Shown: one piece after another, positions 1-21,077 of the stretch | How the letters are laid out: every line of letters starts with the position of its first letter | Position numbering within the stretch: position 1 is the stretch's first letter | From: Cellulomonas hominis | GTDB lineage: Bacteria > Actinomycetota > Actinomycetes > Actinomycetales > Cellulomonadaceae | DNA: 33,998 bases | NCBI RefSeq assembly: GCF_005239125.1 | Contig: NZ_SZYE01000021.1 | Coordinates: 1-33,998 of the forward strand | Reading direction: 5' to 3' | Position numbers and translations under genes: made by a program | Notes under the pieces: model-generated | What the model was told of the DNA's origin: nothing | The model's input: only the letters and a program-made list of their open reading frames with translations | Database searches by the model: none

Positions 1-1442
1 TGCCCGTCGACGTAGGTGGTCACCGCGAGGTTGAACCAGGCGAACCCGATGACGTCGTCGTTCTGGCCGGGGTCGAAGCCCCGGAAGAACGACGTCACCC
101 AGGCGGGCTTGGTGCCGCCGATCTCCGACGCGCCGACCTCGGCCAGCAGGATCTTCTTGTCGGTGATCGCCCGGAGCTGGTCCAGCGTGCGGTCGTAGGT
201 GTACGAGAACGTCGCGTCGTTGTCCGCCTTGTAGGGCGGGCGCTGGTAGCCGGAGACGCCGACCCAGTCCACGTACGCGTCGCCCGGGTAGAGCGCCCGC
301 AGGAAGTCGGTGGTCTGGTTGGCGGCCGGCAGGTTGTTGACGATGTTCGGCGCCCAGACCCAGATGACGTACTGGTTGGCGCCGTTCGCCTCGAAGACGT
401 CGTGGACGTGCTGCCACATCTTCACGTAGTCGCCGACCGCGTTGCCGTTGATGGGGGCGCCGGAGCCGGTCTGCTCGGCCCACGGGTACCAGACGCCGTT
501 CATCTCGTGGTCCAGCCGGATGGCCAGCGGGAGGCCGGTCGCCGCGATGTCCTTGGCGTACTGCGTGAGGTAGGCGTCGAAGTCGCCGGCGATGATCTTG
601 GGCAGGGTGTAGTCCGGCTCGTCGACGACGTCGTTCTTGGACGCGATCGGCCGGGACTCCCAGGTGAGCATCGGCAGCATGCCGCGCTGCCAGGCGCGGG
701 TGACCGCGTTGGCGCGGTAGGACTCGTCCCAGCCGCCGAAGAACCCGACCATCGACTGCCGCCGGCCCACCTCGTCCGCCGCGTCGTCGAACGTGGCCCA
801 GTTGAACGGGGCCTGCTCGGTGTACATGCCGAAGTAGCGGCTGGTGGGGTTCACCAGCGCCGCCTTGCTCGGGGCGGTCGGCTGCGCGGGTGCGGCCGGG
901 GTGCTCGGGTTGTCCGGGCGCGGGGTCGTCGGGTTGGCCGCGCCGGCGCCGCCGGCGGCTGCCGCCGAGCCGCCGCGGCCGGGGCGGGACGACGAGCCCG
1001 ACGACGAGCCGGACGACCGCGAGGACCCGGACCGCGAGCCCGACGACCCGGAGGTCGCCTTCTCGTCGGACCCGGCGTCGGCCGCGGCGGCGGCGTCGGC
1101 CTCGCGCTGCGCCTGGTTCTGCGCCGCGGTCTCCTCGCCCTTCTTGCGGGCGGCCTGCTCGTCGCCCAGGACCTCGCGCAGGGCGTCGGCCTGCGCGCGG
1201 CTGGACTCGAGCTGGCCCTCGAGCTCGGCGTTCCGCTGCTGGAGCGCGAGCTCGGCGGCGGTGGGCTCGTCGGCCTCGGCGTTGACGATGGAGGAGACGG
1301 TCGGCAGGTTCCACACGACGGCGGTGACCGCGACGAGGGCCAGCACGATGACGGCGGTCGCGACGCGGGCGCGGAGGGTCATCCGGCCCATCGTGGGCGC
1401 CCACCAGTGCTTGCCGCTGGGGGTGATCGGTGCGTCAGACAT
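1..1442 (-). CDS. Membrane-anchored GH26 glycoside hydrolase (beta-mannanase family), 3' end off window
   Basis: 480 codons are visible and the frame is still open at base 1, so the C-terminus is missing. From the ATG at 1442 the protein has a short basic cytoplasmic tail, one membrane segment (about residues 20-42), a charged Glu/Gln/Ala-rich likely coiled coil (about 50-100), a Ser/Gly/Arg/Pro-rich linker (about 105-165) and then a GH26 domain. GH26 hallmarks are HEMNGVWYPW, with the likely acid/base Glu313, and LLAEVGASE, with the likely nucleophile Glu435; their spacing of about 120 residues fits the family. GH26 enzymes cut beta-1,4-mannans, beta-1,3-xylan or mixed-linked glucans. The start overlaps the end of the upstream glycosyltransferase gene by 8 bases, so the two are almost surely co-translated. 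Anchoring on a stalk outside the membrane, next to a polysaccharide synthase, suggests trimming or release of the polymer rather than foraging (inference). The substrate cannot be read from the sequence. Confidence 0.88.
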   Translation of the reverse strand, partial: MSDAPITPSGKHWWAPTMGRMTLRARVATAVIVLALVAVTAVVWNLPTVSSIVNAEADEPTAAELALQQRNAELEGQLESSRAQADALREVLGDEQAARKKGEETAAQNQAQREADAAAAADAGSDEKATSGSSGSRSGSSRSSGSSSGSSSRPGRGGSAAAAGGAGAANPTTPRPDNPSTPAAPAQPTAPSKAALVNPTSRYFGMYTEQAPFNWATFDDAADEVGRRQSMVGFFGGWDESYRANAVTRAWQRGMLPMLTWESRPIASKNDVVDEPDYTLPKIIAGDFDAYLTQYAKDIAATGLPLAIRLDHEMNGVWYPWAEQTGSGAPINGNAVGDYVKMWQHVHDVFEANGANQYVIWVWAPNIVNNLPAANQTTDFLRALYPGDAYVDWVGVSGYQRPPYKADNDATFSYTYDRTLDQLRAITDKKILLAEVGASEIGGTKPAWVTSFFRGFDPGQNDDVIGFAWFNLAVTTYVDG

Positions 1443-3078
1443 AGAGGAGGGCCTCCAGGGCGAACAGGACCACGGCGATCGCGTAGGGGATCGCCGCGAG
1501 CGGGTTGAGCCGTCGGCGGGGGCTCGCGGGGGCGGCGGCACGGGCGTGCCGGCGCGAGGGCTCGGGGGCGGTGACGGTCGCGACCGCGGTGTGCGCGGCC
1601 GGGGCCGCCGCCGGGGCGGCGGGCGCCGTGGCGCCGGCCTCCAGCGGGGCGTACCCGGCGAGGGCGTGCACCGGCTCGCCGTGCGCGCCGGGGTCGGTGG
1701 CGTGGTCGCGCTGCGTGGGGAAGGCACCGCGGTCGACGACGTCGACCGGTGCCGTGTCGGCGATCAGGCCGAGCTCGGCCTCGAGCGTGCCGGGCTGCGT
1801 GGTCTCCTCCGCGGCACCCTGGCCCGGGTCGCCGCCGGCGTAGGCACCGGCGCGGGTGCCCCATCCGGAGGCGTGCGCCATGCGCAGGAAGCCGAGCAGG
1901 CGGACCGGCATCAGGAAGAACGTCGAGACGATGATGAAGACCGGCAGCCGGAAGAAGTCGCCGGGGACCTCCTGGAGGTGCCGGATCTGCCGGATCGCCA
2001 TGGACAGCACGGAGGAGACGACCATCAGCCCGATGACCCAGAACCAGCCGGCCTGGGCGCCGTAGGTCTCGAGCATCGCCTCGTAGAGGTTCACGCCCGT
2101 GCCGCTGGCGGAGCGGTAGACCCAGCCCGCGATCGTCCCCACGAGCAGGAACGGCAGCAGGATGTCGGTGAGGAAGAAGATCGCCAGGATCGGCGCGTGC
2201 CCCAGCATCCAGGGGAGCATCCGCAGGGTGTTGTACTGCGAGCCGCGGGCCCAGCGGAGCTGCTGCTTGAACAGCTTCTTCACCTGCAGCGGGGCGTCGG
2301 TGTAGACGAGGCTCGTGTGCTGGTAGACGGTCCGGTAGCCCTGCTTGAGGGTGAGGTTCGTCAGCGTGCGGTCGTCGGAGACCTCGAGGAAGACGCCCAT
2401 GAACCGCTGGGTCATGAAGTCGTCCATGACGTCGATCAGGATGTGCCGGCGGAACGCGATGGTGCGGCCCGGCAGGCAGCCGACCTGGCCCAGCACGGAC
2501 TGCGCGGGCATCGAGTAGAGCGAGCGCGAGTTCTCCAGCCAGTCCGCCCAGCGGGTGATCCAGGAGCGCGTGGGCTCGAGGATGCGCTGGCGGGTCGTGA
2601 CGCCGCCGACGTTCGCGTCCTTGAACGGCTTGATCAGCTCGGGCAGGGTGCCCGGCGTCCAGACCGTGTCGGAGTCGAGCAGCACGGTGATGTCGTACGC
2701 CGACATCTCGGTGCCGATCTTGACGGCGTTGCGCTTGCCCGGGATCGGGGTGTGCACCCAGCGGACGAGCGGCGCGAACTCCTCGCACACCGCCTCGAGG
2801 CCGGGGTTGCGGGCGCCGTTGATGACGACGATGACCTCGTCGGGTCGCTGCTCGGTCACGCGGGTCAGCACGTCGCGGAACAGGTCGAGCGGCTCGTCGA
2901 CGACGGGCACGATGACGCTGGTGGTCTCGTGGTGCTCGGCGGTCCACGGGCGGTACCGGCGGGACAGGCCCACCTTGAGCAGCCACAGGGCCCAGACGAG
3001 CCCGGAGAAGATCGTGAAGAGGTACAGCTCGGCCTGCTCGTCGAGCATGTGCCGGATCTGCAGGATGAAGATGAACAT
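1435..3078 (-). CDS. Processive family-2 glycosyltransferase, hyaluronan/chitin synthase-like
   Basis: 547 aa. The ATG at 3078 follows a good ribosome site (GAGGTGA). The order is one N-terminal membrane helix (about 17-38), a cytoplasmic GT-A domain (about 52-290), several membrane helices (about 293-400), a long Ala/Pro-rich low-complexity stretch (about 415-520) and a last C-terminal helix. Motifs of processive synthases are present: GKRNAVK (114-120), metal-binding DSD (135-137), GRTIAFRR (204-211), the acceptor/base motif DDRT (235-238), QQLRW (272-276, the QxxRW motif) and WGTR (406-409), which is typical of hyaluronan and chitin synthases. No PilZ (c-di-GMP) domain is seen. Such enzymes polymerise a UDP- or GDP-sugar on the cytoplasmic face and extrude the chain. 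The product is unknown; the overlapping GH26 gene hints at a beta-linked hexosan (inference). The low-complexity insert before the last helix is unusual for the family. Confidence 0.88.
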   Translation of the reverse strand: MFIFILQIRHMLDEQAELYLFTIFSGLVWALWLLKVGLSRRYRPWTAEHHETTSVIVPVVDEPLDLFRDVLTRVTEQRPDEVIVVINGARNPGLEAVCEEFAPLVRWVHTPIPGKRNAVKIGTEMSAYDITVLLDSDTVWTPGTLPELIKPFKDANVGGVTTRQRILEPTRSWITRWADWLENSRSLYSMPAQSVLGQVGCLPGRTIAFRRHILIDVMDDFMTQRFMGVFLEVSDDRTLTNLTLKQGYRTVYQHTSLVYTDAPLQVKKLFKQQLRWARGSQYNTLRMLPWMLGHAPILAIFFLTDILLPFLLVGTIAGWVYRSASGTGVNLYEAMLETYGAQAGWFWVIGLMVVSSVLSMAIRQIRHLQEVPGDFFRLPVFIIVSTFFLMPVRLLGFLRMAHASGWGTRAGAYAGGDPGQGAAEETTQPGTLEAELGLIADTAPVDVVDRGAFPTQRDHATDPGAHGEPVHALAGYAPLEAGATAPAAPAAAPAAHTAVATVTAPEPSRRHARAAAPASPRRRLNPLAAIPYAIAVVLFALEALLYV

Positions 3079-3348: not shown

Positions 3349-3364
3349 TGTGAGATGGATCACA
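3349..3364. promoter_or_regulatory. CRP/GlxR-type cAMP receptor site
   Basis: TGTGA-N6-TCACA, a perfect match to the CRP consensus that actinobacterial Crp/GlxR proteins also recognise. It lies 271 bp before the glycosyltransferase start and 425 bp before clpB, so the polysaccharide operon is the more likely target. Confidence 0.7.
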
Positions 3365-3788: not shown

Positions 3789-6392
3789 TTGGACGCGAAG
3801 CTCACCACCAAGTCGCAGGAGGCGATCGGCGACGCCATCCAGCAGGCGTCGGCCGCGGGGAACCCGCAGCTGGAGCCGGCCCACCTGCTGAACGCGCTGC
3901 TCGCCCAGGAGGGCGGCGTCGCGAACGGCCTGCTCGACGCCGTGGGCGCCGACCGCCAGGCGCTCGGCCGGGCGGTGCGCGCGATCCTCGTCAACCTCCC
4001 CGCAGCGAGCGGCTCCTCCGTCGCCCAGCCGACCGCCTCCCGGGCCACCGCGTCCGCGATCGAGGCCGCGTCGGCCGAGGCACGCACCCTGGGCGACGAC
4101 TACGTGTCCACCGAGCACCTCCTGCTCGGCCTCGCCGCCGGCCAGACCGGCGTCGCCGACGCCCTGCGCGCCCAGGGCGCGTCCCGCGACGCGCTCGCCG
4201 CGGCGCTGCCGTCCGTCCGCGGCTCGGCGCGGGTCACCAGCCCCAACCCCGAGGGCACCTACAAGGCCCTCGAGCAGTACGGCGTCGACCTCACGCAGCG
4301 GGCCCGCGACGGGAGGCTCGACCCGGTCATCGGCCGGGACGCCGAGATCCGCCGCGTCATCCAGGTGCTGTCCCGCCGGACCAAGAACAACCCCGTGCTG
4401 ATCGGCGAGCCCGGCGTCGGCAAGACCGCCGTCGTCGAGGGCCTCGCCCAGCGCATCGTCGCCGGCGACGTGCCGGAGTCCCTGCGCGGCAAGCGCCTCG
4501 TGTCGCTCGACCTCGCGGCGATGGTCGCCGGCGCGAAGTACCGCGGCGAGTTCGAGGAGCGGCTGAAGGCGGTCCTGGAGGAGATCACCTCCTCCGAGGG
4601 CGAGGTCGTCACGTTCATCGACGAGCTGCACACGGTCGTCGGCGCGGGCGCCGGCGGCGAGGGCGCCATGGACGCGGGCAACATGCTCAAGCCGATGCTG
4701 GCCCGCGGCGAGCTGCGCCTGGTCGGCGCCACCACCCTGGACGAGTACCGAGAGCGGATCGAGAAGGACCCCGCCCTGGAGCGCCGGTTCCAGCAGGTGT
4801 TCGTCGGCGAGCCCTCCGTGGAGGACACCGTCGCCATCCTGCGCGGCCTCAAGGAGCGGTACGAGGCGCACCACAAGGTGACGATCGCCGACGCCGCCCT
4901 GGTCGCCGCCGCGACCCTGTCCGACCGGTACATCACCGGCCGCCAGCTCCCGGACAAGGCGATCGACCTGGTCGACGAGGCCGCGTCCCGGCTGCGGATG
5001 GAGCTCGACTCCTCCCCGGTCGAGATCGACGAGCTGCAGCGCGCCGTCACCCGGCTGGAGATGGAGGAGGTCGTGCTGTCCGAGGCGGACGACCCCGCCT
5101 CCCGCGAACGGCTCGAGAAGCTCCGCGCCGACCTGGCCGACCGCCGCGAGGAGCTCGCCGGGCTCACCGCGCGCTGGGAGAAGGAGAAGGCCGGGCACAA
5201 CCTCGTCGGCGACCTCAAGGCGCGCCTGGACGACCTGCGCTCGACCGCGGACCGGCTGCTGCGCGAGGGCGACCTCGCCGCGGCCGCGCGCCTGCAGTAC
5301 GGCGAGATCCCGGCGGTCGAGAAGGAGATCGCGGAGGCGGAGCGCAGCGAGCGGGAGGCCGACTCCTCCGTCGCGGCGGACACCCCGATGATCGCCGACA
5401 AGGTCGGCCCGGACGAGATCGCCGAGGTCGTCGCCATGTGGACGGGCATCCCCGCCGGGCGCCTGCTGGAGGGCGAGACCGCGAAGCTGCTCCGGATGGA
5501 GGAGGTCATCGGCGAGCGGCTGATCGGGCAGTCCGCGGCGGTCGCCGCCGTGTCGGACGCCGTGCGCCGATCGCGCGCGGGCATCGCCGACCCCGACCGC
5601 CCGACCGGGTCGTTCCTGTTCCTCGGCCCGACCGGCGTCGGCAAGACCGAGCTCGCCAAGGCGCTCGCGGACTTCCTGTTCGACGACGAGCGCGCCATGG
5701 TCCGGATCGACATGTCCGAGTACGCCGAGCGGCACTCCGTCGCGCGCCTCATCGGGGCGCCCCCGGGCTACGTCGGCTACGAGGAGGGCGGCCAGCTCAC
5801 CGAGGCCGTCCGGCGCCGCCCGTACTCGGTGCTGCTGCTCGACGAGGTCGAGAAGGCGCACCCCGAGGTGTTCGACATCCTGCTGCAGGTGCTGGACGAC
5901 GGCCGGCTCACCGACGGCCAGGGCCGCACGGTCGACTTCCGGAACGTCATCCTCGTGCTGACGTCCAACCTCGGCTCGCAGCACCTCGTGGACCCGCTGC
6001 TCGACCCCGAGCAGCGCCGCGCCGGCGTGATGGACGCGGTGCGCGCGGCGTTCAAGCCGGAGTTCCTCAACCGGCTGGACGACATCGTGCTGTTCGACCC
6101 GCTGTCGCTCGAGGAGATCGGCAGGATCGTCGACCTGCAGGTCGCGTCCCTCGCGGCGCGGCTGCGGGACCGGCGGCTCACGCTCGACGTGGAGCCGGCG
6201 GCGCGCGAGTGGCTGGCGATCGAGGGCTTCGACCCGGCGTACGGGGCCCGGCCGCTGCGCCGGCTCGTGCAGCGCGAGATCGGCGACAAGCTGGCCCGGC
6301 TGCTGCTCGCGGGCGAGGTCCACGACGGCGACACGGTGCGCGTGACCCGCGCGGCCGACGGGCAGGGCGGCCTGGAGCTGACCCGGGGCTGA
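3789..6392 (+). CDS. clpB: ATP-dependent protein disaggregase ClpB
   Basis: 867 aa, the usual ClpB length. ClpB is a cytoplasmic hexameric AAA+ machine that, with DnaK, pulls proteins out of aggregates. The domain order is: N-terminal double-repeat domain (about 1-145), first AAA+ module with Walker A GEPGVGKT (206-213) and Walker B FIDELH, a long charged coiled-coil middle domain (about 400-520) that separates ClpB from ClpC and ClpA, and a second AAA+ module with GPTGVGKT (about 612-619) and [10 protein letters not shown]. The start is TTG at 3789, preceded by GGAGGGG; the protein then begins with the [12 protein letters not shown] sequence typical of actinobacterial ClpB. The same frame is open further upstream, but that part is non-coding and holds the promoter and HAIR site. 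The gene is single, with a hairpin terminator after it. Control is probably by HspR plus a SigR/SigH-type factor. Confidence 0.97.
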
Positions 6393-6431
6393 CGCCGGGG
6401 CCCGGGCGCGGCGGCGTGCCCGCGACGTCCG

Positions 6432-6468
6432 GTGTGCGAGGTGTGCAGGACCTGTGCGCCTCGCACGC
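6432..6468 (+). terminator. Hairpin after clpB
   Basis: Arms GTGCGAGG (6434-6441) and CCTCGCAC (6459-6466) enclose a second short CAGG/CCTG stem. There is no T-run, as usual in this GC-rich DNA. Confidence 0.55.
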
Positions 6469-6508
6469 CCGACCCCGGGCACCGGGGGCCGCCCGCGGGG
6501 TCGCGTGC

Positions 6509-6514
6509 GACGAT
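6509..6514 (+). promoter_or_regulatory. -10 box of leaderless DedA gene
   Basis: GACGAT ends 8 nt before the ATG at 6523, and there is no ribosome site. This is the leaderless pattern seen at many genes of this window. Confidence 0.45.
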
Positions 6515-6522
6515 CGACCGCG

Positions 6523-7194
6523 ATGAACGCGACCCTCGCCCTGGCCGCCGCCCCCGCCGCCTCCGGCACGCCCGAGCTCACCGGCCTGGCCGGCTGGGTG
6601 GTGAGCGTCATCGAGACCATGGGCCCCACCGGGGTCGGCCTCGTCGTGGCGCTGGAGAACCTGTTCCCACCCATCCCGTCCGAGGTCGTGCTCCCCGTCG
6701 CGGGGTACGTGGCGAGCCAGGGGCAGATGAGCCTCGTGTGGGCCGTCGTCGCGGCCACGCTCGGCGCGGTCGCCGGCGCGTGGCTGCTCTACGGCCTCGG
6801 CGCCTGGTTCGGGCGGGCGCGGCTGCGCCGCTGGCTGGAGCGGATCCCGCTCATGGAGGTCGAGGACCTGGACCGCGCCGAGGCGTGGTTCGAGCGGCAC
6901 GGCGGCGCGGCGGTGCTGATCGGGCGGTGCGTGCCGATCGTCCGCTCGCTCGTGTCGATCCCGGCCGGCCTGGAGCGGATGCCGCAGACCCGGTTCCTGC
7001 TGTACACCGCGCTCGGCAGCGCGGTCTGGAACAGCCTGCTGATCGTCGGCGGGTACGTGCTCGGCTCCCAGTGGCAGGACATCGGGCACTACTCGGACTA
7101 CATCAACTACGCCGTGTACGCCGTGATCGTGGTGCTGGTCGTGCGGTTCGTCTGGACCCGGCTGCGCCGCAGGCGGCTCGCCGCCCGCGGCTGA
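6523..7194 (+). CDS. DedA-family membrane protein
   Basis: 223 aa, an integral membrane protein of the DedA/SNARE-associated family (PF09335). These proteins act as lipid flippases or transporters, for example of undecaprenyl phosphate and phosphatidylethanolamine, and support membrane homeostasis. Visible hallmarks are ENLFPPIPSEVVLPVAGY (about 40-60), the re-entrant loop with the conserved acidic and proline residues, and GRCVPIVRSLVSIPAG (about 133-150) with the essential arginine. A C-terminal hydrophobic segment is followed by an Arg-rich tail. I chose the ATG at 6523 because the first membrane segment follows soon after it and a -10 box sits 8 nt upstream. It is convergent with the flavoprotein gene, only 12 bp away. 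A second DedA gene lies at 16522-17280 and is clearly a different paralogue. The exact substrate is unknown. Confidence 0.88.
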   Translation: MNATLALAAAPAASGTPELTGLAGWVVSVIETMGPTGVGLVVALENLFPPIPSEVVLPVAGYVASQGQMSLVWAVVAATLGAVAGAWLLYGLGAWFGRARLRRWLERIPLMEVEDLDRAEAWFERHGGAAVLIGRCVPIVRSLVSIPAGLERMPQTRFLLYTALGSAVWNSLLIVGGYVLGSQWQDIGHYSDYINYAVYAVIVVLVVRFVWTRLRRRRLAARG

Positions 7195-7206
7195 CCGTCC
7201 CCCGCG

Positions 7207-8298
7207 TCAGCCGAACAGGGCACCCACCTTCGACGCGAACAGGTCCTCGCCCTTCAGGCGGCTCGTCGCCGCGGCGCCGACCACCCGGCGCACCCCGTCC
7301 TCGCCGACGAGCTGCGAGGCGCCACCCGCGCGGCCGAGCGGCAGCAGGATCCGCTCCGGCGCGGGGGCGTAGGTCGCGGTCGGCTCCCGGCCCTCGACGA
7401 GCGCCGTGATGTTCGCGGCCACCACCTCGGCGTGCGCGCGCGCCGCCGACGCGCGCTTGGACTCGGGCACGTCCGTGATGTCCCCGACCGCGAACACCGT
7501 CGGGTGGCCGGTCAGCGCGAGCGTCTCGTCGACCCGCACCTCGCCGAGGCCGTTGCGCGCGCCCGTCAGGTCGCCCGCCAGGTAGTCGCTCGCCGGCAGG
7601 TTGCCGTAGCAGCGGAACCACATCTGCGCCTCGACGCGGACGCCCGCCTCGGTCTCCACGACGAACGGCTCGTGCACGCCGACGTCCGACGGCGGCAGGT
7701 AGCCGAGCCGGGAGCCCAGCACCAGCTCCACCCGGTCGGCGAGCTGGGCGCGCACGGTCTCCCGCAGCTCCGGCAGGTAGTCGTCCGTGGTGAGCACGTC
7801 GTCGGCCTGGTCCACCACGGTGATCGACAGGTGCGGGTACGCGTCCAGCAGCTCGCCGACCAGCTCCAGGCCCACGGCGCCGGCGCCGACCACCAGGACG
7901 CGCTCCGCCCGGGCGAGCCCCTCGCGCATCCGGGCGAGCCGCGCCTGGGCGACCACCGTCTCGGACTCGATGAACTTGGCCGGGAACGGGTACGCCGTGC
8001 CCGTCGCGAGCACCAGGTAGTCGGCGTCCAGCGTGCTGCCGTCCGCGAGCCGCACCTGCCCGGACGTCGCGCGCTCGACCTTCTGGCGCAGCACCAGGCC
8101 GCGCTCCAGCAGGCGGTCGTAGCCGAAGAAGACGCGGTCCTCCCACGCGGGGTCCACCGCCGCGCGCAACGCCGCCGCGGCGTGCACGAACGCGTCCTTC
8201 GGGTCCACCAGGACGACGTCGGCGACGCCGTCCAGCAGCGAGGCCACCTGCGCCCCGCCGTACCCGCCGCCGACCACGACGACCCGCGGTGCTGCCAT
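7207..8298 (-). CDS. FAD-dependent pyridine nucleotide-disulphide oxidoreductase, NDH-2/AIF-like
   Basis: 363 aa. Two Rossmann folds are visible: an FAD-binding one at the N-terminus (VVVVGGGYGGAQVA, about 5-18) and an NAD(P)H-binding one in the middle (VLVVGAGAVGLELVG, about 145-160). A C-terminal FAD motif, VFAVGDITD, lies at about 287-295. There is no CxxxxC redox pair, so it is not a thioredoxin- or lipoamide-type reductase. Layout and length match type II NADH:quinone oxidoreductases and the AIFM2/FSP1 group, which pass electrons from NAD(P)H to quinones at the membrane surface. There is no membrane helix. The ATG at 8298 has an AGAGGGG ribosome site 8 nt before it. It stands alone, downstream of the GH3 gene's terminator. 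The electron acceptor is not predictable. Confidence 0.85.
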   Translation of the reverse strand: MAAPRVVVVGGGYGGAQVASLLDGVADVVLVDPKDAFVHAAAALRAAVDPAWEDRVFFGYDRLLERGLVLRQKVERATSGQVRLADGSTLDADYLVLATGTAYPFPAKFIESETVVAQARLARMREGLARAERVLVVGAGAVGLELVGELLDAYPHLSITVVDQADDVLTTDDYLPELRETVRAQLADRVELVLGSRLGYLPPSDVGVHEPFVVETEAGVRVEAQMWFRCYGNLPASDYLAGDLTGARNGLGEVRVDETLALTGHPTVFAVGDITDVPESKRASAARAHAEVVAANITALVEGREPTATYAPAPERILLPLGRAGGASQLVGEDGVRRVVGAAATSRLKGEDLFASKVGALFG

Positions 8299-8538
8299 GT
8301 CCGAACCCCTCTCGCCCCGACGCGACCGCCGGTCGCGGCCCGTGCCCCCGAGCCTGCCACCGCCCCGGGCGCGCGGGCTGGGACGCAGGACCCGCCCGCG
8401 CCGTGACGTGCGCGACGCCCGCCCGCGCACGTCCCGGTCCCCACCTCTTCGTCGCGCGGCCCCCTGATCGTCCGGGCGGTGGCGCGAGAACGGGGCGGGG
8501 ACCAGGGCGGTCCGCGTCTCCACCTCCGCCGTAGACGC

Positions 8539-8575
8539 CGCAGGCCCGCCGCGCGAGGTGCGCGGCGGGCCTGCG
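8539..8575 (-). terminator. Strong hairpin terminator after the GH3 gene
   Basis: A perfect 16-bp stem (8539-8554 with 8560-8575) and a 5-nt loop, GC-rich, without a T-run. It lies just past the GH3 stop codon. The rest of the 308-bp gap 8299-8606 shows nothing else I can name. Confidence 0.8.
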
Positions 8576-8606
8576 GGCGGGTGCGGCGTGCGGCGCCGCC
8601 GGTGGG

Positions 8607-10877
8607 TCAGGCGGCGGCCCGCGCGACCAGGTCGTCCAGGCCGGCCAGGTCGAAGCCGCCCATGCCGAAACCCGCGACGACGCGCATCGGCATGTCGCCC
8701 ATCATCGCCAGCATCGTCGGGTCGAGCGCCGCGGTGGCCTCGCCGAACGCGGCACCGAGCAGCTCGGCGCCCCGCGGGTGCGCGAGCCACTCGTTGACCG
8801 TCGAGTCCGCGGTGAGCGTGCCGTGGAGGGCCTCGCCGGTGACGGTGACCTCGGCCGTGCCGCGGATGTCCCGGGACGACGCCCCGACCTCGATGACCGT
8901 GCGGCCGCCGCCGACGGCCCACCGGCGCAGCGCCGGGTGCCAGTACGACAGGTCGCGGGCGTCGAGCGTGAACTGCAGCGTGCGGGACTCGCCCGGCTCG
9001 AGCGCCACCTTGGCGAACGCCTTGAGCTCGCGGGTCGGGCGCAGCACCGCCGCCTCGGGGTCGCCGACGTAGACCTGGACCGTCTCGGCGCCGGCGCGGT
9101 CGCCGGTGTTGGTCACCGTCACCGACACGTCGACGGCGGACGAGGCGCCCTCGCCGGACACGGACGCCGTGACGTCGGAGTAGCCGAAGGTCGTGTACGA
9201 CAGGCCGTGGCCGAACGGGTAGGCGACGTCGATCAGCCGGGTGTCGTACCAGCGGTAGCCGATGAGCACGCCCTCGCCGTACCGGACGTGCCCGTTGTCG
9301 CCGGGGAAGTTGCCGAACGCGGGGGTGTCCTCGACGCGGTGCGGGATCGTCTCGGCGAGCTTGCCGGACGGGTTGCGCACACCGAGCAGCAGGTCCGCGA
9401 CGGCCGAGCCGCCGGCCTGGCCGCCGAGCCAGGTCTCCAGGACCGCCGCGGCGGCGTCCTGCCACTCCACGGCCACCGCCGAGCCGTTGGCCAGCACCAC
9501 GACGACGCGGTCGTTCACCGCGGCGACGGCGCGCAGCAGCGCCACCTGGTTCGCGGGCAGGTCGAGGTGCGTGCGGTCGTAGCCCTCCGACTCGTCGACC
9601 GCGGGCAGGCCGAGGAACAGCAGCACCGTGCCGGCGCCGCGGGCGACCTCGACGGCCTCCGCGAGCAGCGCGGCATCCGTGGGCGCCGCGTCGCCGCCCG
9701 CGCCGGCGACGGCGAACCCGGCGGCGAACGGGAGCTCGGTGCCGGTCGCGGAGCGCAGGGCGGTCAGGGCGTCGTCCAGGCGGGTCGGGTTCACCTGGGA
9801 GGAGCCGGCGCCCTGGTACCGCGGGGTCCGGGCGAACTCGCCGATCACCACGGCGCGCGCGGCGTCGTCCGCCGACAGCGGCAGGACCGGGGTCCCGTCC
9901 ACCGGTGCGTTCTTCAGCAGCACCGAGCCGTCCGCGGCGGCCTCGCGGGCCAGCGCGTGGTGCGCCTCGACGTCGATCGAGCCGGGCTCCGCGAGCGCGG
10001 GCCGGGCGCGGGCGATCAGCGTGAGCACCCGGCGGACGGCGGTGTCGAGCACCGCCTCGTCGAGCCGGCCGTTCTTCACCGCGTCGACGACGAGCGCGTC
10101 CGTGCGGCCGCCGGTCGCCGGCATCTCCAGGTCCAGACCCGCGGCGACGGCGGCGACGCGGTCCACCACGGCGCCCCAGTCGGACACGACCAGGCCCTCG
10201 AAGCCCCACTCGTCGCGCAGCACCTCGGTCAGCAGCCAGTGGTCCTGGGAGGCGTAGGTGCCGTTGATCTTGTTGTACGAGCACATGACGGTCCACGGCT
10301 GCGCCCGCTTCACCACGCGCTCGAACGCGGGGAGGTAGATCTCGCGCAGCGTGCGCTCGTCGACGTCCGCGGAGACCCGCATGCGGTCGGTCTCCTGGTT
10401 GTTCGCGGCGAAGTGCTTGAGCGAGGTGCCGACGCCCTCGGACTGGATGCCGGACACGAGCGCCGCGCCGAGGTCGCCGGCGAGCGCCGGGTCCTCGGAG
10501 AAGTACTCGAAGTTCCGGCCGCACAGCGGCGAGCGCTTCATGTTGACGCCCGGGCCGAGCAGCACGGCGACCTCGTTGCCGCGGGTCTCGCGGCCCAGCG
10601 CGCGCCCGACCCGGTCGAGCAGGTCGACGTCCCAGGTCGAGGCCAGCGCGGCGGCGGGCGGGAAGCAGGTGGCGGGCACGGAGTTGCCGATGCCCAGGTG
10701 GTCGGCGCTCTCGGCCTGCTTGCGCAGGCCGTGCGGGCCGTCGGTCACCATCACCCGGGGGACGCCGAGGCGCTCGACGCCCTCGGTGTGCCAGAAGTCG
10801 GAGCCGGACGTCAGCGCGGCCTTCTCCTCCAGGGTGAGCTCGGCCAGGACGCGCTCGACGTCGAATGCGGCGGTCAT
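8607..10877 (-). CDS. Glycoside hydrolase family 3 beta-glucosidase
   Basis: 756 aa. GH3 enzymes remove terminal beta-linked glucose (or xylose and others) from oligosaccharides by a retaining mechanism. The N-terminal (beta/alpha)8 domain contains the KHFAANNQETDR motif (about 137-148) and the nucleophile Asp233 in GLVVSDWGAV. The second, alpha/beta sandwich domain and a C-terminal fibronectin-III-like domain (about 590-665) follow. A further tail of about 70 residues rich in Gly, Met and Ala extends beyond the usual end. There is no signal peptide and no PA14 insert, so it acts in the cytoplasm on imported cello- or other oligosaccharides (inference). The ATG at 10877 follows GAGGAGGTG, a very strong ribosome site. 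It is divergent from a TetR-family gene 159 bp away, the probable local regulator. No transporter is linked. Confidence 0.93.
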   Translation of the reverse strand: MTAAFDVERVLAELTLEEKAALTSGSDFWHTEGVERLGVPRVMVTDGPHGLRKQAESADHLGIGNSVPATCFPPAAALASTWDVDLLDRVGRALGRETRGNEVAVLLGPGVNMKRSPLCGRNFEYFSEDPALAGDLGAALVSGIQSEGVGTSLKHFAANNQETDRMRVSADVDERTLREIYLPAFERVVKRAQPWTVMCSYNKINGTYASQDHWLLTEVLRDEWGFEGLVVSDWGAVVDRVAAVAAGLDLEMPATGGRTDALVVDAVKNGRLDEAVLDTAVRRVLTLIARARPALAEPGSIDVEAHHALAREAAADGSVLLKNAPVDGTPVLPLSADDAARAVVIGEFARTPRYQGAGSSQVNPTRLDDALTALRSATGTELPFAAGFAVAGAGGDAAPTDAALLAEAVEVARGAGTVLLFLGLPAVDESEGYDRTHLDLPANQVALLRAVAAVNDRVVVVLANGSAVAVEWQDAAAAVLETWLGGQAGGSAVADLLLGVRNPSGKLAETIPHRVEDTPAFGNFPGDNGHVRYGEGVLIGYRWYDTRLIDVAYPFGHGLSYTTFGYSDVTASVSGEGASSAVDVSVTVTNTGDRAGAETVQVYVGDPEAAVLRPTRELKAFAKVALEPGESRTLQFTLDARDLSYWHPALRRWAVGGGRTVIEVGASSRDIRGTAEVTVTGEALHGTLTADSTVNEWLAHPRGAELLGAAFGEATAALDPTMLAMMGDMPMRVVAGFGMGGFDLAGLDDLVARAAA

Positions 10878-10915
10878 GCGGTGGCACCTCCTCGTGCGGT
10901 GGATCTGTTGCCGCC

Positions 10916-10921
10916 ACTGTA
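10916..10921 (-). promoter_or_regulatory. Possible -10 box of the GH3 gene
   Basis: TACAGT on the minus strand, 38 bp before the ATG, in the divergent GH3-tetR region. No convincing -35 box is found. Confidence 0.35.
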
Positions 10922-11036
10922 GCCGATGCCTACCGCCCGGTCGGGTTCTTCTCCCGGGTCTGCGGACCTCCTGTGAGAACCTGTCCACCACGCGCCGCCC
11001 GGCGCGCACGGAGCACGGTGACGGGGGCCAGGGACG

Positions 11037-11699
11037 ATGTCCGTCGAGACGCAGCAGCGCGGGTACGCGAAGGGGCGCGCGAAGCGCCGGGAGATCATCG
11101 ACCAGGCCACGGCCATGTTCGGCGAGGTCGGCTACCGGGGGGCGTCGCTCCGCGAGATCGCGGCACGGTGCGGCATCTCGCACCCCGGCCTGCTGCACCA
11201 CTTCCCGACCAAGGAGTCCCTGCTGCTCGCGGTGCTGGAGCACCGCGACCAGGTCGACATCGAGTGGCTGGACGCGGACAGCGCCGACGGCGTCACCACG
11301 CTGCGGCACCTGGTCGAGCTCGTGGCGCTCAACGCGACCCGGCGCGGGATCGTCGAGCTGTACGCCGTGCTCTCCGCCGAGGCCACCTCCGCGGACCACC
11401 CCGCGCACGTGTACTTCCAGGACCGGTACCGCCGGGCGCTCGACGCCGCGACCACGGCGTACGCGCGGGCCGCCGAGCAGGGCGCGCTCCGCGAGGGCGT
11501 CGACCCGGACGCCGCGGGCCGCCAGCTGATCGCGCTCATGGACGGCATGCAGATCCAGTGGCTGCTCGACGACGGGGAGACCGACATGGCCGGCGTGGTG
11601 CGCCGGCAGGTGCAGGACCAGCTCGCGGTGCCGCTGGACGCGGGGGCGGACGCCCCGCCGGCGGACGCCGCCGAGCTGGACGCCGGGGTCGAGCGCTAG
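11037..11699 (+). CDS. TetR/AcrR-family transcriptional regulator
   Basis: 220 aa, a one-component repressor type. The N-terminal helix-turn-helix (about 18-64) is clear: the segments TAMFGEVGYRGASLREIA and CGISHPGLLHHFPTKESLL match the TetR DNA-binding domain closely. The remaining 150 residues are the ligand-binding and dimer domain, which is variable and gives no ligand. It is divergent from the GH3 beta-glucosidase gene, the usual arrangement for a regulator controlling itself and its neighbour, so a sugar or glycoside effector is a reasonable guess. It ends on the palindromic CTAG at 11696-11699, which it shares with the stop codon of the gene on the other strand. The ATG at 11037 is preceded by GGGA a few bases upstream. 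Confidence 0.9.
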   Translation: MSVETQQRGYAKGRAKRREIIDQATAMFGEVGYRGASLREIAARCGISHPGLLHHFPTKESLLLAVLEHRDQVDIEWLDADSADGVTTLRHLVELVALNATRRGIVELYAVLSAEATSADHPAHVYFQDRYRRALDAATTAYARAAEQGALREGVDPDAAGRQLIALMDGMQIQWLLDDGETDMAGVVRRQVQDQLAVPLDAGADAPPADAAELDAGVER

Positions 11700-12364
11700 G
11701 CCGGCGCCGCCGAGCCGTCCAGCAGCGACCCCGTGACCGGGGAGGGCGGCACCGCCACGCACAGGCCGGTCCGGTCGCCGCGCGCCCACGACCCCTGCGT
11801 CGGCGCCCACGCGAGCATCCGCGTGCCCTGGTCCCGCTCGTCGGCGGTGAGGACGCAGGACGCCTCCACGCGCGCCGACGCCTCGGCGGGGCCGGGCCAC
11901 GACGAGCCCGGCTCGAACGCGTAGGACGACACCACCTGGGCGGCGTGCGGGTCGGCGCACGGCACGACGCGCACCCGGTCGACGGGGCCGTCCGCGGGGA
12001 CGTCCGCGAGGCACGCGCCCGGTACGAGCTGCACCGCGTGGGCGTCCACGGGCGCGGTCACGTCCGCCGGCAGCGGGCGCGCGGCGACGGCCGAGCCGAC
12101 GACCAGCGCGAGCAGGCCCGCCCAGGCCGCGGTGCCCAGCGCACCGAGCACCACCCCCGCCACCGCGAGACCCCGGCCGGCGCGCCGGTCCGGGGCGCCG
12201 GGGCGCGTGCGGCGCAGCCCGACGAGGCCGAGCACCAGGGCGACGGGCCCGGTGCCGAGGACGCCCGCGACCAGCGCCGCGACGGACACGCCGTCGGTGC
12301 GGGGGCGCGGCGGCGCCCAGCCGGGCGCGTAGAACGGCTCCGGGTAGCCGTAGGGGTCCGTCAC
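11696..12364 (-). CDS. DUF4190/septum-formation-domain membrane protein
   Basis: 222 aa. The N-terminus is short and Pro/Tyr-rich. Two membrane segments follow (about 26-48 and 64-92, DUF4190 type) around a small loop with Gly, Arg and Pro. The extracellular part has the GxCL...V.CxxxH pattern of the septum-formation domain (PF13845): PGACLADVP at about 114-122 and VVPCADPHAAQVVSSY soon after. Four cysteines outside the membrane could form disulphides. The start is GTG at 12364, one base after the stop codon of the upstream paralogue, so the two form an operon. The role is unknown; the domain name comes from actinobacterial proteins tied to division, but direct evidence is thin. It ends tail to tail with tetR, sharing CTAG. 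Confidence 0.75.
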   Translation of the reverse strand: MTDPYGYPEPFYAPGWAPPRPRTDGVSVAALVAGVLGTGPVALVLGLVGLRRTRPGAPDRRAGRGLAVAGVVLGALGTAAWAGLLALVVGSAVAARPLPADVTAPVDAHAVQLVPGACLADVPADGPVDRVRVVPCADPHAAQVVSSYAFEPGSSWPGPAEASARVEASCVLTADERDQGTRMLAWAPTQGSWARGDRTGLCVAVPPSPVTGSLLDGSAAPA

Positions 12365-12365
12365 G

Positions 12366-13250
12366 TCACACCTCCGCCGCCGGCCCGGCCGCGAACGTCC
12401 CGGCCAGCACCGAGCCCGTCGCCGCCAGGTCCGTGGACAGCACGCAGTAGGCCCAGCGGTCCCCGGCGGCCCACTGGTCGGGGTGCACGAAGTACACGTC
12501 CGCCCAGGCGTCCGCCGGGAGCGCCGCCGGGTCGACCAGGTGCGCGACCGCGGCCGTGCACCGGTCCAGCAGCGCGGTGTACGCCGCGTCCGGCTCCGCG
12601 ACGTCGGCGAGCACCGGCTCCGCCATCGCCAGGCGGTCCACCACCTCGGAGGTGTGGCCGGCGGCGCAGTCGACCACGCGGCCGTCGGACATGTCGTACG
12701 TCGCGGGGGCGGCCGCGAGGCAGTCGCCGGGGGTCAGCGCGTCGGTCAGCGCGAACCACGGCAGCGTGGTCGCCGACCCGCCGCCGGCGAGGTCGTCCGC
12801 GCCGGCCCCGGCGCCCGGGCCGGGGGCCCCGGAGGCGCTCGACGACCCCGCCGTCGCGACCGTGACCGCGACCGCGACGGCCAGGCCGCCCACCAGCAGC
12901 ACGGTCAGCACCCCGCCGATCCACGTCGCCGCGACCGCCAGGCCCCGGCCCGGCGCGCCCGTGCGGCGGACACGGCGCTGCGCGGCGATGCCGAGCCCCA
13001 GGCCGACCGGGCCCGTGAACAGGCTCACCAGGCCCGCCAGCGCGACCACGAACGCCGCGATCGCCAGCCCGTCGGTGCCGCGGGGCGCCGGGGGCGGACC
13101 CCAGGCGGGCGGCGGGGCGGTGACGTAGGGCGGTGGCGGCAGCGGCGCGCCGGGGGGAGCGGGCGACGGGGCCCACACGCCGGCGGACGGCGCGGGGGCG
13201 GTCGGCGCCGGGCCCGGCCAGGCCGGCGGACCCGGCTCGGGGGTCGACAT
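12366..13250 (-). CDS. DUF4190/septum-formation-domain membrane protein, larger paralogue
   Basis: 294 aa, same design as its downstream neighbour. It has a Pro/Ala-rich cytoplasmic N-terminus of about 58 residues, two membrane segments (about 62-90 and 103-133), a Gly/Ser/Ala linker and an extracellular domain. That domain contains TPGDCLAAAP (about 172-181), VVDCAAGHTSEVV (about 192-204) and further cysteines near DRCTAAV and WAYCVLS. These features match the septum-formation domain (PF13845). The pair is most simply a tandem duplication that has diverged. The ATG at 13250 has no ribosome site, but a TAGGTT -10 box lies 6 nt before it, so the transcript is probably leaderless. Its function is not known; an envelope or division role is only suggested by the family name. 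Confidence 0.75.
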   Translation of the reverse strand: MSTPEPGPPAWPGPAPTAPAPSAGVWAPSPAPPGAPLPPPPYVTAPPPAWGPPPAPRGTDGLAIAAFVVALAGLVSLFTGPVGLGLGIAAQRRVRRTGAPGRGLAVAATWIGGVLTVLLVGGLAVAVAVTVATAGSSSASGAPGPGAGAGADDLAGGGSATTLPWFALTDALTPGDCLAAAPATYDMSDGRVVDCAAGHTSEVVDRLAMAEPVLADVAEPDAAYTALLDRCTAAVAHLVDPAALPADAWADVYFVHPDQWAAGDRWAYCVLSTDLAATGSVLAGTFAAGPAAEV

Positions 13251-13256
13251 GCGCCG

Positions 13257-13262
13257 AACCTA
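13257..13262 (-). promoter_or_regulatory. -10 box of leaderless septum-domain operon
   Basis: TAGGTT on the minus strand, 6 nt before the ATG at 13250. Confidence 0.55.
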
Positions 13263-13321
13263 GCGGAGCCGTCGCGGCCGGTACGGCGCCCCCGCGCGGT
13301 TCCCCCGGACGGGCGCGGGCG

Positions 13322-14119
13322 TCACGCCGCGTCGGCGATGTCCAGCACCACGGGCACGTGGTCCGAGGGCGCCTTGCCCTTGCGCTCGACCCGCTCGATC
13401 GACACCCCGGTCACCCGCGGCGCGAGGGCGGGCGAGGCCCAGGTGAAGTCGATGCGCATGCCCTCGTTCCGCGGGAACCGCAGCTGCTGGTAGTCCCAGT
13501 ACGTGTAGGTGTGCTCGGCGGGCAGGTGCACGCGGGACACCTCGGTGTACCCGCCCGCGCCGAACGCCTGGAAGGCATCGCGCTCCGCGGGCGTCACGTG
13601 CGTCCGCCCGGCGAACACGCCGATGTCCCACACGTCGGTGTCGAGCGGCGCGACGTTCCAGTCGCCCACCAGGGCGACCGGGAGCGCCGGGTCCTCCTCG
13701 ATCCAGCGGCGCGACTCCTGCTGCAGGGCCTCCAGCCAGCGCAGCTTGTAGTCGAAGTGCGGGTCGCCGACCTCCCGGCCGTTCGGGACGTACAGGCTCC
13801 ACACCCGCACGCCGCCGCAGCTGGCCCCGAGGGCGCGGGCCTCGGTCACCGGGTCCTCGCCCCAGCCGGGCTGGCCCGCGAACGCGTGCTCGACGTCGTG
13901 TATCCCGACCCGGGAGGCGATCGCGACGCCGTTCCACTGGCTGAACCCGCTCGTGACCACCTCGTAGCCGGCCGCCTCGAAGGCCTCGCGCGGGAACTGC
14001 TCGTCCTTGCACTTGGTCTCCTGCATCGCCAGCACGTCCGTGCCCGTCCGCTCCAGGAAGGCGATCACGCGGTCGACGCGGGTGCGGACGGAGTTCACGT
14101 TCCAGGTGGCGAGGCGCAT
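13322..14119 (-). CDS. xth: Exodeoxyribonuclease III (AP endonuclease)
   Basis: 265 aa, the normal length for the Xth/ExoA family. The enzyme cuts DNA 5' to abasic sites and removes 3' blocking groups in base-excision repair, using Mg2+. The endonuclease/exonuclease/phosphatase fold shows its motifs in order: ATWNVNS (4-10), AMQETK with the metal-binding Glu, SLYVPNG, GDWNVAP with catalytic Asp and Asn, RIDFTW and the terminal SDHVPVV with the catalytic His. Start is ATG at 14119; a TACCGT -10 box lies 7 nt upstream and no ribosome site is present, so it is probably leaderless. It is divergent from the short-chain dehydrogenase gene by 90 bp. A monocistronic unit is likely. Confidence 0.95.
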   Translation of the reverse strand: MRLATWNVNSVRTRVDRVIAFLERTGTDVLAMQETKCKDEQFPREAFEAAGYEVVTSGFSQWNGVAIASRVGIHDVEHAFAGQPGWGEDPVTEARALGASCGGVRVWSLYVPNGREVGDPHFDYKLRWLEALQQESRRWIEEDPALPVALVGDWNVAPLDTDVWDIGVFAGRTHVTPAERDAFQAFGAGGYTEVSRVHLPAEHTYTYWDYQQLRFPRNEGMRIDFTWASPALAPRVTGVSIERVERKGKAPSDHVPVVLDIADAA

Positions 14120-14126
14120 GACCGGC

Positions 14127-14132
14127 ACGGTA
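14127..14132 (-). promoter_or_regulatory. -10 box of leaderless xth
   Basis: TACCGT on the minus strand, 7 nt before the ATG. Confidence 0.55.
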
Positions 14133-14197
14133 CCGGCCGCTCCCGACACCCGGGGAACCGGGCGCCCGGCACCCGGGCGACCGGGGGGTGGCGACCG

Positions 14198-14203
14198 TAG
14201 GGT
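14198..14203 (+). promoter_or_regulatory. -10 box of leaderless SDR gene
   Basis: TAGGGT, 6 nt before the ATG at 14210. The same hexamer precedes purD. Confidence 0.55.
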
Positions 14204-14209
14204 GGCCGC

Positions 14210-14986
14210 ATGGGAACCGCACTGATCACGGGCGCCAGCTCCGGCCTGGGGCTCGAGTTCGCGTGGCAGCTCGCCACCGCCCGCCACGACGTCGTCCTCG
14301 TCGCCCGCGACGCCGAGCGCCTGGAGCGCCTCGCCGCCCAGCTGCGCGCCGCCGCGGGCGTCCGCGCGGAGGTGCTCCGCGCCGACCTGACCGACCGGGA
14401 CGACGTGGAGCGCGTCGCCGAGCGGCTGCGCGCCACCGAGCGGCCCGTCGGCCTGCTCGTGAACAACGCCGGCATCGGCCTCGGCCAGCGGTTCGTGGGC
14501 AGCGACCTCGCGCAGCAGGAGGCGGCGCTCGACCTCATGGTCCGCGCCGTGCTCGTGCTGTCCCACGCCGCGGCCGGCGCGATGGTCGAGCGGGGGCGCG
14601 GCGCGATCCTCAACGTCGGCTCCGTCGCCGCCCTCATGACCTCCGGGACCTACTCGGCGCACAAGGCGTGGGTGCGGACCTTCACCGAGGGGCTCGCCGC
14701 GGAGCTCGCGGGCACCGGCGTCACGGCCACGGTCGTGTCCCCGGGCCTGACGCACACCGAGTTCCACGAGCGCGCCGGGCTGCGCGCCGGCGAGGCCTAC
14801 CCCGAGCTGGCCTGGCTGTCCGCCGACCGGGTCGTGGCGGCGGCGCTCGCGGACGTGCGCCGCGGCGCCGTGCTGTCGACCCCCAGCCTGCGCTACCGGG
14901 CCGCGTCCGGCGTGCTGCGGGTCCTGCCCCGCTCCGCCCTCCGCGCGCTCGCCACCCGCCGCCCGGACCGCGCCCCCGGGGACTGA
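14210..14986 (+). CDS. Short-chain dehydrogenase/reductase (SDR)
   Basis: 258 aa, classical SDR size. The NAD(P)-binding motif TGASSGLGLEF (about 7-17) is followed by VARD, whose Arg after the second strand favours NADP(H). NNAG (about 84-87), the catalytic Ser in NVGSVAA, and YSAHK with catalytic Tyr and Lys complete the active site. The proline-gly motif SPGLTHTEFH follows. The C-terminus is basic and hydrophobic (LRVLPRSALRALATRRP), which may bring it to the membrane. Sequence style is that of the DltE/YqjQ-like group, whose substrates are mostly unknown. It lies 31 bp before pyrE, but pyrE has its own -10 box, so an operon is possible and not required. The substrate cannot be predicted. 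Confidence 0.88.
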   Translation: MGTALITGASSGLGLEFAWQLATARHDVVLVARDAERLERLAAQLRAAAGVRAEVLRADLTDRDDVERVAERLRATERPVGLLVNNAGIGLGQRFVGSDLAQQEAALDLMVRAVLVLSHAAAGAMVERGRGAILNVGSVAALMTSGTYSAHKAWVRTFTEGLAAELAGTGVTATVVSPGLTHTEFHERAGLRAGEAYPELAWLSADRVVAAALADVRRGAVLSTPSLRYRAASGVLRVLPRSALRALATRRPDRAPGD

Positions 14987-15004
14987 CGCCCGGCACGGCC
15001 TCGC

Positions 15005-15010
15005 TACGCT
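15005..15010 (+). promoter_or_regulatory. -10 box of leaderless pyrE
   Basis: TACGCT, 7 nt before the GTG. A CTGACG 16 nt upstream is a fair -35 box. Confidence 0.55.
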
Positions 15011-15017
15011 GGCGGCC

Positions 15018-15596
15018 GTGACGACCTCCTCCCTCTCCCCGACCCCGCGCGAGCAGCTCCGCGACCTCATCGTCGAGCTGGCCGTCGTGCGCGGCCGGGT
15101 CACGCTGTCCTCCGGCCGCGAGGCCGACTACTACGTCGACCTGCGCCGGGTGACCCTGCACCACCGCGCCGCGCCGCTGATCGGCCACGTGCTGCTCGAC
15201 CGGCTGGAGGAGGTCGGCCTGGGCACGGCGGACGTCGAGGCGGTCGGCGGCCTGACCCTCGGCGCCGACCCGGTCGCGACCGCGCTGCTGCACGCCGCCG
15301 CGTCCCGCGGGCAGGACCTGGACGCGTTCGTGGTCCGCAAGGAGGCGAAGGCGCACGGCATGCAGCGCCGCATCGAGGGCCCCGACATCGCCGGCCGCCC
15401 CGTCGTCGTGCTGGAGGACACCTCGACCACCGGGGCGTCGCCCATCGCCGCGGTCGAGGCCGCGCGCGAGGCGGGCGCGGACGTCCGCGGCGTGGCCGTG
15501 ATCGTCGACCGCGCCACCGGTGCGCGGGAGAAGATCGAGGCGCTCGGCGTCCCGTACCACTACCTCTTCGACCTGACCGACCTCGGCCTGGCCTGA
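15018..15596 (+). CDS. pyrE: Orotate phosphoribosyltransferase
   Basis: 192 aa. PyrE joins orotate and PRPP to give OMP, the fifth step of UMP synthesis, in the cytoplasm as a dimer. The type I phosphoribosyltransferase fold is clear: SSGREADYYVDLR near the N-terminus (orotate site), the flexible loop with FVVRKEAKAHGMQRRIEG (about 110-127), and the PRPP-binding signature VVVLEDTSTTGASP (about 130-143). Start is GTG at 15018, supported by a -10 box 7 nt before it and by the family's N-terminus. It is followed by a large inverted repeat that separates it from the convergent HAD gene. pyrE lies close to purine genes in this window, but the other pyrimidine genes are absent. Confidence 0.96.
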   Translation: MTTSSLSPTPREQLRDLIVELAVVRGRVTLSSGREADYYVDLRRVTLHHRAAPLIGHVLLDRLEEVGLGTADVEAVGGLTLGADPVATALLHAAASRGQDLDAFVVRKEAKAHGMQRRIEGPDIAGRPVVVLEDTSTTGASPIAAVEAAREAGADVRGVAVIVDRATGAREKIEALGVPYHYLFDLTDLGLA

Positions 15597-20964: not shown

Positions 20965-21077
20965 GATGCTCCCTCCCGTCCGGGCGGCTGCCGCAGGGGC
21001 CGCCGCCGGTGATCGGCCCGTCCCGGCGGGCTGCTGCACCGGGATCTGTCGGGAACGCTAGACGATCGGAGGCGGTG

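Follow-up and report, generated by a model that had tools for sequence, protein, structure and literature searches.

A conserved actinobacterial gene unit pairing a hyaluronan-synthase-like GT2 and a tethered GH26 enzyme with a UDP-glucose-dehydrogenase-like protein, and its probable glucuronate-containing product

The DNA analysed here, which we call the window, is a whole contig of 33,998 nucleotides from Cellulomonas hominis (NZ_SZYE01000021.1, our G000:C133), and one end of it holds two genes of a conserved unit on the minus strand. The first (1435..3078) encodes a 547-residue processive family 2 glycosyltransferase (GT2), a polysaccharide synthase resembling hyaluronan synthases, and the second (2..1442) encodes a glycoside hydrolase of family 26 (GH26) with an N-terminal membrane helix and a linker. 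The two genes overlap by 8 bases, as an earlier sequence-only reading had it; the shared bases are ATGTCTGA at 1435..1442 (minus strand), where the GT2 stop codon occupies 1437-1435 and the GH26 gene starts with ATG at 1442. Because base 1 of the window is the contig end, the GH26 gene runs off it and is incomplete, with 480 residues seen. Our analysis indicates that a gene for a UDP (uridine diphosphate)-glucose-dehydrogenase-like protein belongs to the same unit, and that the three genes together probably make and trim a polymer containing glucuronic acid (GlcA).

Every motif that had been named for the synthase can be located in the protein: DSD at residues 135-137, SDDR at 234-237 followed by T, QQLRW at 272-276 and WGTR at 406-409. 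The class I hyaluronan synthase motifs DxD, QxxRW and WGTR are all present, and the PDB matches of the GT2, five distinct sequences, are hyaluronan synthases without exception (the best E value is 1.5e-16 with the protein alone and 4.2e-19 with a profile built from 42 relatives), so that the proposed likeness to these enzymes is borne out. In the hyaluronan synthase of Chlorella virus (CvHAS) the carboxylate of GlcA is held by Lys177 and Arg341 (PMC12987647; this and the other papers are cited for the portions of their text that were accessible), and these residues align with Lys115 and Arg275 of the GT2, which are invariant in 42 sequences. Two other positions differ. Gly300 of the GDD motif, conserved in hyaluronan synthases, and Arg348, conserved in those of bacteria and eukaryotes (PMC12987647), are replaced in the GT2 by Ser234 and Tyr282, again invariant in the 42 sequences. 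Thus, while its sequence predicts that the GT2 works like the hyaluronan and type 3 synthases, we refrain from naming it one of the former, because of the change at these two positions. Conservation along the protein is uneven: the commonest residue averages 91% with no gaps over residues 51-290, and only 53%, with 37% gaps, over residues 416-520, the least conserved part. The suggestion that the low-complexity stretch near the last helix is a conserved contact site is rejected on this ground.

The GH26 protein consists of one hydrophobic helix, a charged stretch that, judged by eye, resembles a coiled coil, a low-complexity linker of Ser, Gly and Pro, and the GH26 domain. A hydropathy scan places the predicted membrane helix at residues 25-43 (1314..1370, minus strand), and the domain scores 50.3 bits against PF02156, above the cut-off of 20.2, in agreement with the earlier picture of a hydrolase carried on a membrane helix. 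The nearest PDB structure is CtLic26A (Endoglucanase H; E 2.7e-33), a GH26 lichenase of Clostridium thermocellum (PDB 2bv9 and others), and an AlphaFold2 model of the GH26 domain at one related locus (L061) has a mean predicted local distance difference test score (pLDDT) of 91 and alternates strands and helices in a (beta/alpha)8-like manner. Alignment to CtLic26A puts the catalytic acid/base at Glu313 (504..506; chain position 109) and the catalytic nucleophile at Glu435 (138..140; chain position 222), both on the minus strand. Both glutamates occur in all 85 distinct domains linked to a GT2 and in all 6 unlinked ones, and the active-site tyrosine, Tyr399 here, is unchanged in all 85 linked domains. 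Because of this constancy we regard the enzyme as probably active.

What differs in the linked domains is a pair of tryptophans. At the position of Trp187 in the CtLic26A chain, two residues past Tyr399, the window has Arg401 (240..242, minus strand), and the linked domains have Arg in 84 of 85 and Tyr in the remaining one; the Trp of the WEPW motif is replaced in all 85, most often by Arg (56), Val (11), Ala (10) or Leu (3). Both tryptophans are present in CtLic26A and in the six unlinked relatives, a comparison that left out seven lower-scoring unlinked GH26 domains (L188_02, L175_02, L052_04, L183_02, L176_02, L185_01 and L186_02), and by this mark the linked enzymes do not fall within the lichenase branch. 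A tree groups the linked domains in one clade (support 0.993) against the six unlinked lichenase-like relatives, one of which comes from the window's genome. From the replacement of both tryptophans we infer a changed specificity, one that would suit an acidic sugar. The same genome has a second, apparently secreted GH26 enzyme (L003 10298-11233, contig C405), which keeps the lichenase-type Trp residues and has no adjoining GT2.

Is the pair peculiar to this strain? In 58 genomes of relatives, its own included, we found 21 strong matches to the GT2 (>600 bits) in 19 genomes, 18 of the 36 inside the genus and 1 of the 22 outside it. A GH26 match adjoins 20 of the 21; the remaining GT2 stands where its contig ends, and elsewhere in its genome a contig opens in a GH26 and goes on to the dehydrogenase. 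Scanning 84,980 species genomes gave 201 stretches encoding relatives, and the best 80 of these 201, which were kept, come from Cellulomonas, Actinotalea, Curtobacterium, Leifsonia, Xylanimonas, Frigoribacterium and other Microbacteriaceae. Collapsing identical GT2 sequences, which arise when one genome is in two collections, leaves 90 distinct GT2 genes from both sets; loci with too little room downstream (6 of 90 with less than 900 bases, 15 of 90 with less than 2.9 kb) are dropped from the respective counts. The next gene is a co-oriented GH26 gene in 84 of the 84 distinct loci that have at least 900 bases downstream. Restriction to one strain is thereby rejected: adjacent pairs were searched for in other actinobacterial genomes and found throughout the loci with room, and the GT2 and GH26 genes stand as a real synthase-hydrolase pair. 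The 8-base overlap is likely to couple their translation; an ATG or GTG offers the same overlap in 50 of 95 pairs and no start codon lies within -30 to +10 in 43 of 95, counts in which duplicates are not removed and in which starts are uncertain, the gene calls coming from a simple codon-composition script.

The third gene was invisible to the sequence-only reading because it sits on another contig. In the window's genome it lies at the start of contig C46 (C46:193-1620), is 97% identical to that of a relative, and is preceded, in another frame of the first bases of the contig, by a Pro/Thr/Ser tail that by eye closely resembles the end of relatives' GH26. Across the distinct loci with at least 2.9 kb downstream, the dehydrogenase is the second gene after the GT2 in 70 of 75, the exceptions being L036, L052, L053, L100 and L126. 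In L100 and L126 its open reading frame (ORF) is present, and the gene caller inserted a spurious ORF or ran through an N gap; a true GH26-dehydrogenase fusion in L126 is not adopted, because the joined ORF passes through a run of N. The best PDB match of the dehydrogenase is the UDP-glucose dehydrogenase 4a7p (E 2.7e-102), the match to GDP-mannose 6-dehydrogenase is much weaker (E 4.2e-59), and the protein passes the TIGR03026 cut-off for nucleotide-sugar dehydrogenases. A GDP-mannose 6-dehydrogenase activity and an alginate-like product were not adopted, given the far better scores of UDP-glucose dehydrogenases. The neighbourhoods around the triad differ among loci. L036 carries a tandem GT2-GH26-dehydrogenase-GT2-GH26 (6316-15011), and in L088 (Cellulomonas sp. 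ACRRI) a dehydrogenase is followed by a GT2, as in that tandem arrangement. In L053, of a distant family, a membrane protein with acyltransferase and SGNH domains (13114-15306) is encoded just upstream of the GT2-GH26 pair, which hints at possible O-acylation of the polymer there.

Some loci add genes for precursor supply. GalU is the next gene after the triad in five Leifsonia loci, identified in all five by similarity to L091, whose GalU is itself over the TIGR01099 cut-off; a phosphoglucomutase (PGM) gene adjoins the unit on the opposite strand in 12 of 90 loci, assigned to Cellulomonas or to the window's genus, with the PGM of L040 over the TIGR01132 cut-off. The three genes of the triad also diverge together, with Mantel r of 0.88, 0.90 and 0.91 over 69 triads (0 of 999 permutations as high), the mean distance being 0.47 for GH26 versus 0.23 and 0.25 for its two partners. 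Our picture of the spread beyond the sampled relatives comes from the species-genome scan and from a sample of 100 actinobacterial genomes across the phylum, in which the GT2 has a match at 1e-30 in three: the window's genome itself and two others whose matches are distant. A UDP-sugar-dehydrogenase-like gene is found near both distant relatives, whose identity is 39% and 33% (L139 1518-7394; L140 8320-11690). Since they keep this gene without a GH26, the link between synthase and dehydrogenase looks older than that with GH26.

How might these genes work together? We think it fairly likely that GT2, GH26 and UDP-glucose 6-dehydrogenase form a conserved actinobacterial operon that makes and trims a GlcA-containing beta-glycan. 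The dehydrogenase would make UDP-glucuronic acid; the membrane GT2 would take this as donor and polymerise it, most likely in alternation with a second UDP-sugar, and would extrude the chain as class I hyaluronan synthases or the type 3 synthase of pneumococcus do. Anchored by its N-terminal helix, and presumably facing outwards on the external side of the membrane, the GH26 enzyme would then cut the emerging chain, setting its length or releasing it. The polymer probably contains glucuronic acid rather than being a plain mannan, because the precursor genes are the set found in hyaluronan and pneumococcal type 3 operons. Hyaluronan operons, in streptococci and on a Bacillus plasmid, pair the synthase with UDP-glucose dehydrogenase and a pyrophosphorylase (PMC10939387); the pneumococcal type 3 capsule requires ugd and one synthase, with galU and pgm dispensable (PMC3182177), and its polymer alternates glucose and glucuronic acid (PMC12220298).

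The nature of the second sugar can be stated more tentatively. Glucose, in a chain with alternating beta-1,3 and beta-1,4 links, is a plausible choice to which we give somewhat less than even weight, because the GH26 of this unit is nearest to a lichenase and because the precursor genes seen all serve UDP-glucose and UDP-GlcA. A lichenase cleaves a beta-1,4 bond that follows a 3-substituted sugar. Each GlcA-beta-1,4-Glc bond of a type 3-like chain fits this description, which is why we favour Glc/GlcA over GlcA and N-acetylglucosamine (GlcNAc). More speculative is the full picture of a so far undescribed acidic exopolysaccharide system in Micrococcales. Its synthase, related to hyaluronan synthases, would join Glc and GlcA in alternation into a cellobiuronan-like chain, and the GH26 enzyme would found a new specificity in its family, that of an endo-hydrolase acting on a uronic-acid polymer, with the conserved Arg401 taking the place of a lichenase Trp and binding the carboxylate; this we offer as a possibility only.

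Several observations weigh against the operon as we read it. The GKR and QxxRW motifs, home of Lys115 and Arg275, are found also in synthases that do not use GlcA, and we know of no GH26 enzyme that acts on a uronic-acid substrate. The dehydrogenase stays below the cut-offs of the two UDP-glucose-dehydrogenase equivalog models that it comes nearest to (401.6 of 700 for TuaD, 351.4 of 670 for AglM), so that its substrate is inferred. No dehydrogenase is adjacent at L052 and L053, and the second tandem GT2-GH26 copy of L036 has it upstream instead; GalU is present in only 5 of 70 loci with room, and PGM is on the opposite strand. Shared species history would equally yield the Mantel correlations of 0.88-0.91. 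Finally, neither of the distant GT2 relatives has a GH26 at its locus; both are accompanied by right-handed beta-helix proteins, and in L140 a single called ORF joins a beta-helix to the GT2. The wider synthase family can thus do without GH26, and at those loci another kind of surface enzyme may stand in for it.

Of the other explanations, one holds that the product is hyaluronan-like, the GT2 alternating GlcA with GlcNAc and the GH26 having evolved to cut this product. The exclusive matches of the GT2 to hyaluronan synthases and a gene set similar to hasA-hasB-hasC (PMC10939387) speak for it. However, the residues at the Gly300 and Arg348 positions are changed in every one of the 42 sequences, a gene for UDP-GlcNAc was not seen among the loci whose neighbours were read, and the GH26 activities listed in the accessible text of PMC8565777 concern polymers of mannose, glucose and xylose, so that we consider a hyaluronan-like product unlikely. 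Alternatively, the GH26 protein might transfer the chain to an acceptor or act as a translocation partner instead of trimming. Its tethering, its likely co-translation with the synthase and its faster divergence relative to its partners would suit such a role; the invariant glutamate pair and tyrosine, as found in retaining GH26 hydrolases, argue for hydrolysis, although retaining enzymes can transglycosylate, and on balance we doubt that it has this role. Least probable of the three is the neutral beta-mannan or mixed-linkage glucan of the sequence-only reading, with the dehydrogenase serving another wall polymer: GH26 is a family of mannanases and lichenases, the closest structure is a lichenase and genes can be neighbours without sharing a pathway, but the dehydrogenase-like gene is conserved as the third gene and recurs near two distant GT2 relatives, GalU or PGM in some lineages likewise points to glucuronate, and the lichenase-like tryptophans are gone. 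A beta-1,3-xylan route, conceivable since GH26 includes xylanases, was not adopted because no UDP-GlcA decarboxylase was seen among the neighbours read, where no systematic search for one was made.

If the preferred reading of a GlcA polymer made and trimmed by one operon is right, how does it compare with known systems? Streptococcal hasABC, which to our knowledge has no hydrolase gene, shares with it a synthase with DxD, DDR, QxxRW and WGTR, a dehydrogenase in the operon and, in the five Leifsonia loci, GalU, whereas the present unit inserts GH26 between synthase and dehydrogenase and its GT2 has Ser and Tyr at the Gly300 and Arg348 positions. Cellulose and alginate machines, too, encode glycan-cutting enzymes, BcsZ and AlgL, alongside the synthase and so likewise combine polymer synthesis with an enzyme that can cleave the product, but those systems use other hydrolase or lyase families, other synthase types and a Gram-negative envelope. 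The linked GH26 shares its aligned catalytic glutamates with CtLic26A and differs from it in being membrane-tethered, in being tied to a synthase and in the exchange of Trp187 for Arg. The pneumococcal type 3 locus (ugd, wchE/cps3S, galU, pgm) is likewise built on a single synthase and a dehydrogenase, with GalU or PGM near the triad in some of our loci; it belongs to a Firmicute, its description in the accessible parts of PMC3182177 and PMC12220298 includes no GH26, and we liken it by gene set, not by synthase sequence. In Actinoplanes missouriensis a GH26 enzyme, WpsE, occurs within the polysaccharide cluster wps-1, which unlike the present unit is a Wzx/Wzy-type cluster with sulfation genes and not a synthase operon, and whose authors state that no Wzx/Wzy cluster with GH26 had previously been characterised (PMC13390465, accessible text). 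A Cellulomonas genome paper counts GH26 as mannan-degrading and mentions curdlan and exopolysaccharide genes (PMC3544764), and the nearest paper on a Gram-positive mixed-linkage glucan synthase does not mention GH26 in the accessible part of its main text (PMC10374906). We found no description of the GT2-GH26-dehydrogenase unit in the open literature, most subscription papers lying outside that search.

Thus we propose, with reasonable though not full confidence, that the system is wider and otherwise aimed than first thought, namely an operon for synthesis of an acidic polysaccharide in which a GH26 gene is built in. If so, this compact three-gene unit, common to soil and plant actinobacteria, would enable many Cellulomonas, Curtobacterium, Leifsonia and other related actinobacteria to make an acidic polysaccharide at their surface; it would resemble the hyaluronan and type 3 capsule operons but lie outside the loci of pathogens and include a dedicated hydrolase. 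It would offer a new synthase for studies of donor alternation, possibly a new GH26 specificity, and a source of glucuronate polymers from non-pathogens. Several of the genera that carry it dwell on plants, where surface polysaccharides influence attachment.

Upstream of the GT2, in the intergenic region that separates it from the divergent clpB, lies a perfect CRP-like palindrome, TGTGAGATGGATCACA (3349..3364, plus strand), 286 bases before the GT2 start. It is a candidate regulatory site and could serve clpB as well. CRP-like sites precede 23 of 89 distinct GT2 genes (9 exact, 14 with one mismatch); of 445 stretches drawn at random from these loci, which are mostly coding and therefore an imperfect control, 5 have such a site (0 exact, 5 with one mismatch). 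Further along the window, 5.5 kb from the GT2, the minus strand encodes a glycoside hydrolase family 3 enzyme with a fibronectin-like domain (8607-11810), and at 21075-23282 a single protein combines PAS, SpoIIE phosphatase and histidine-kinase-like ATPase domains and is likely a stress-signalling regulator.

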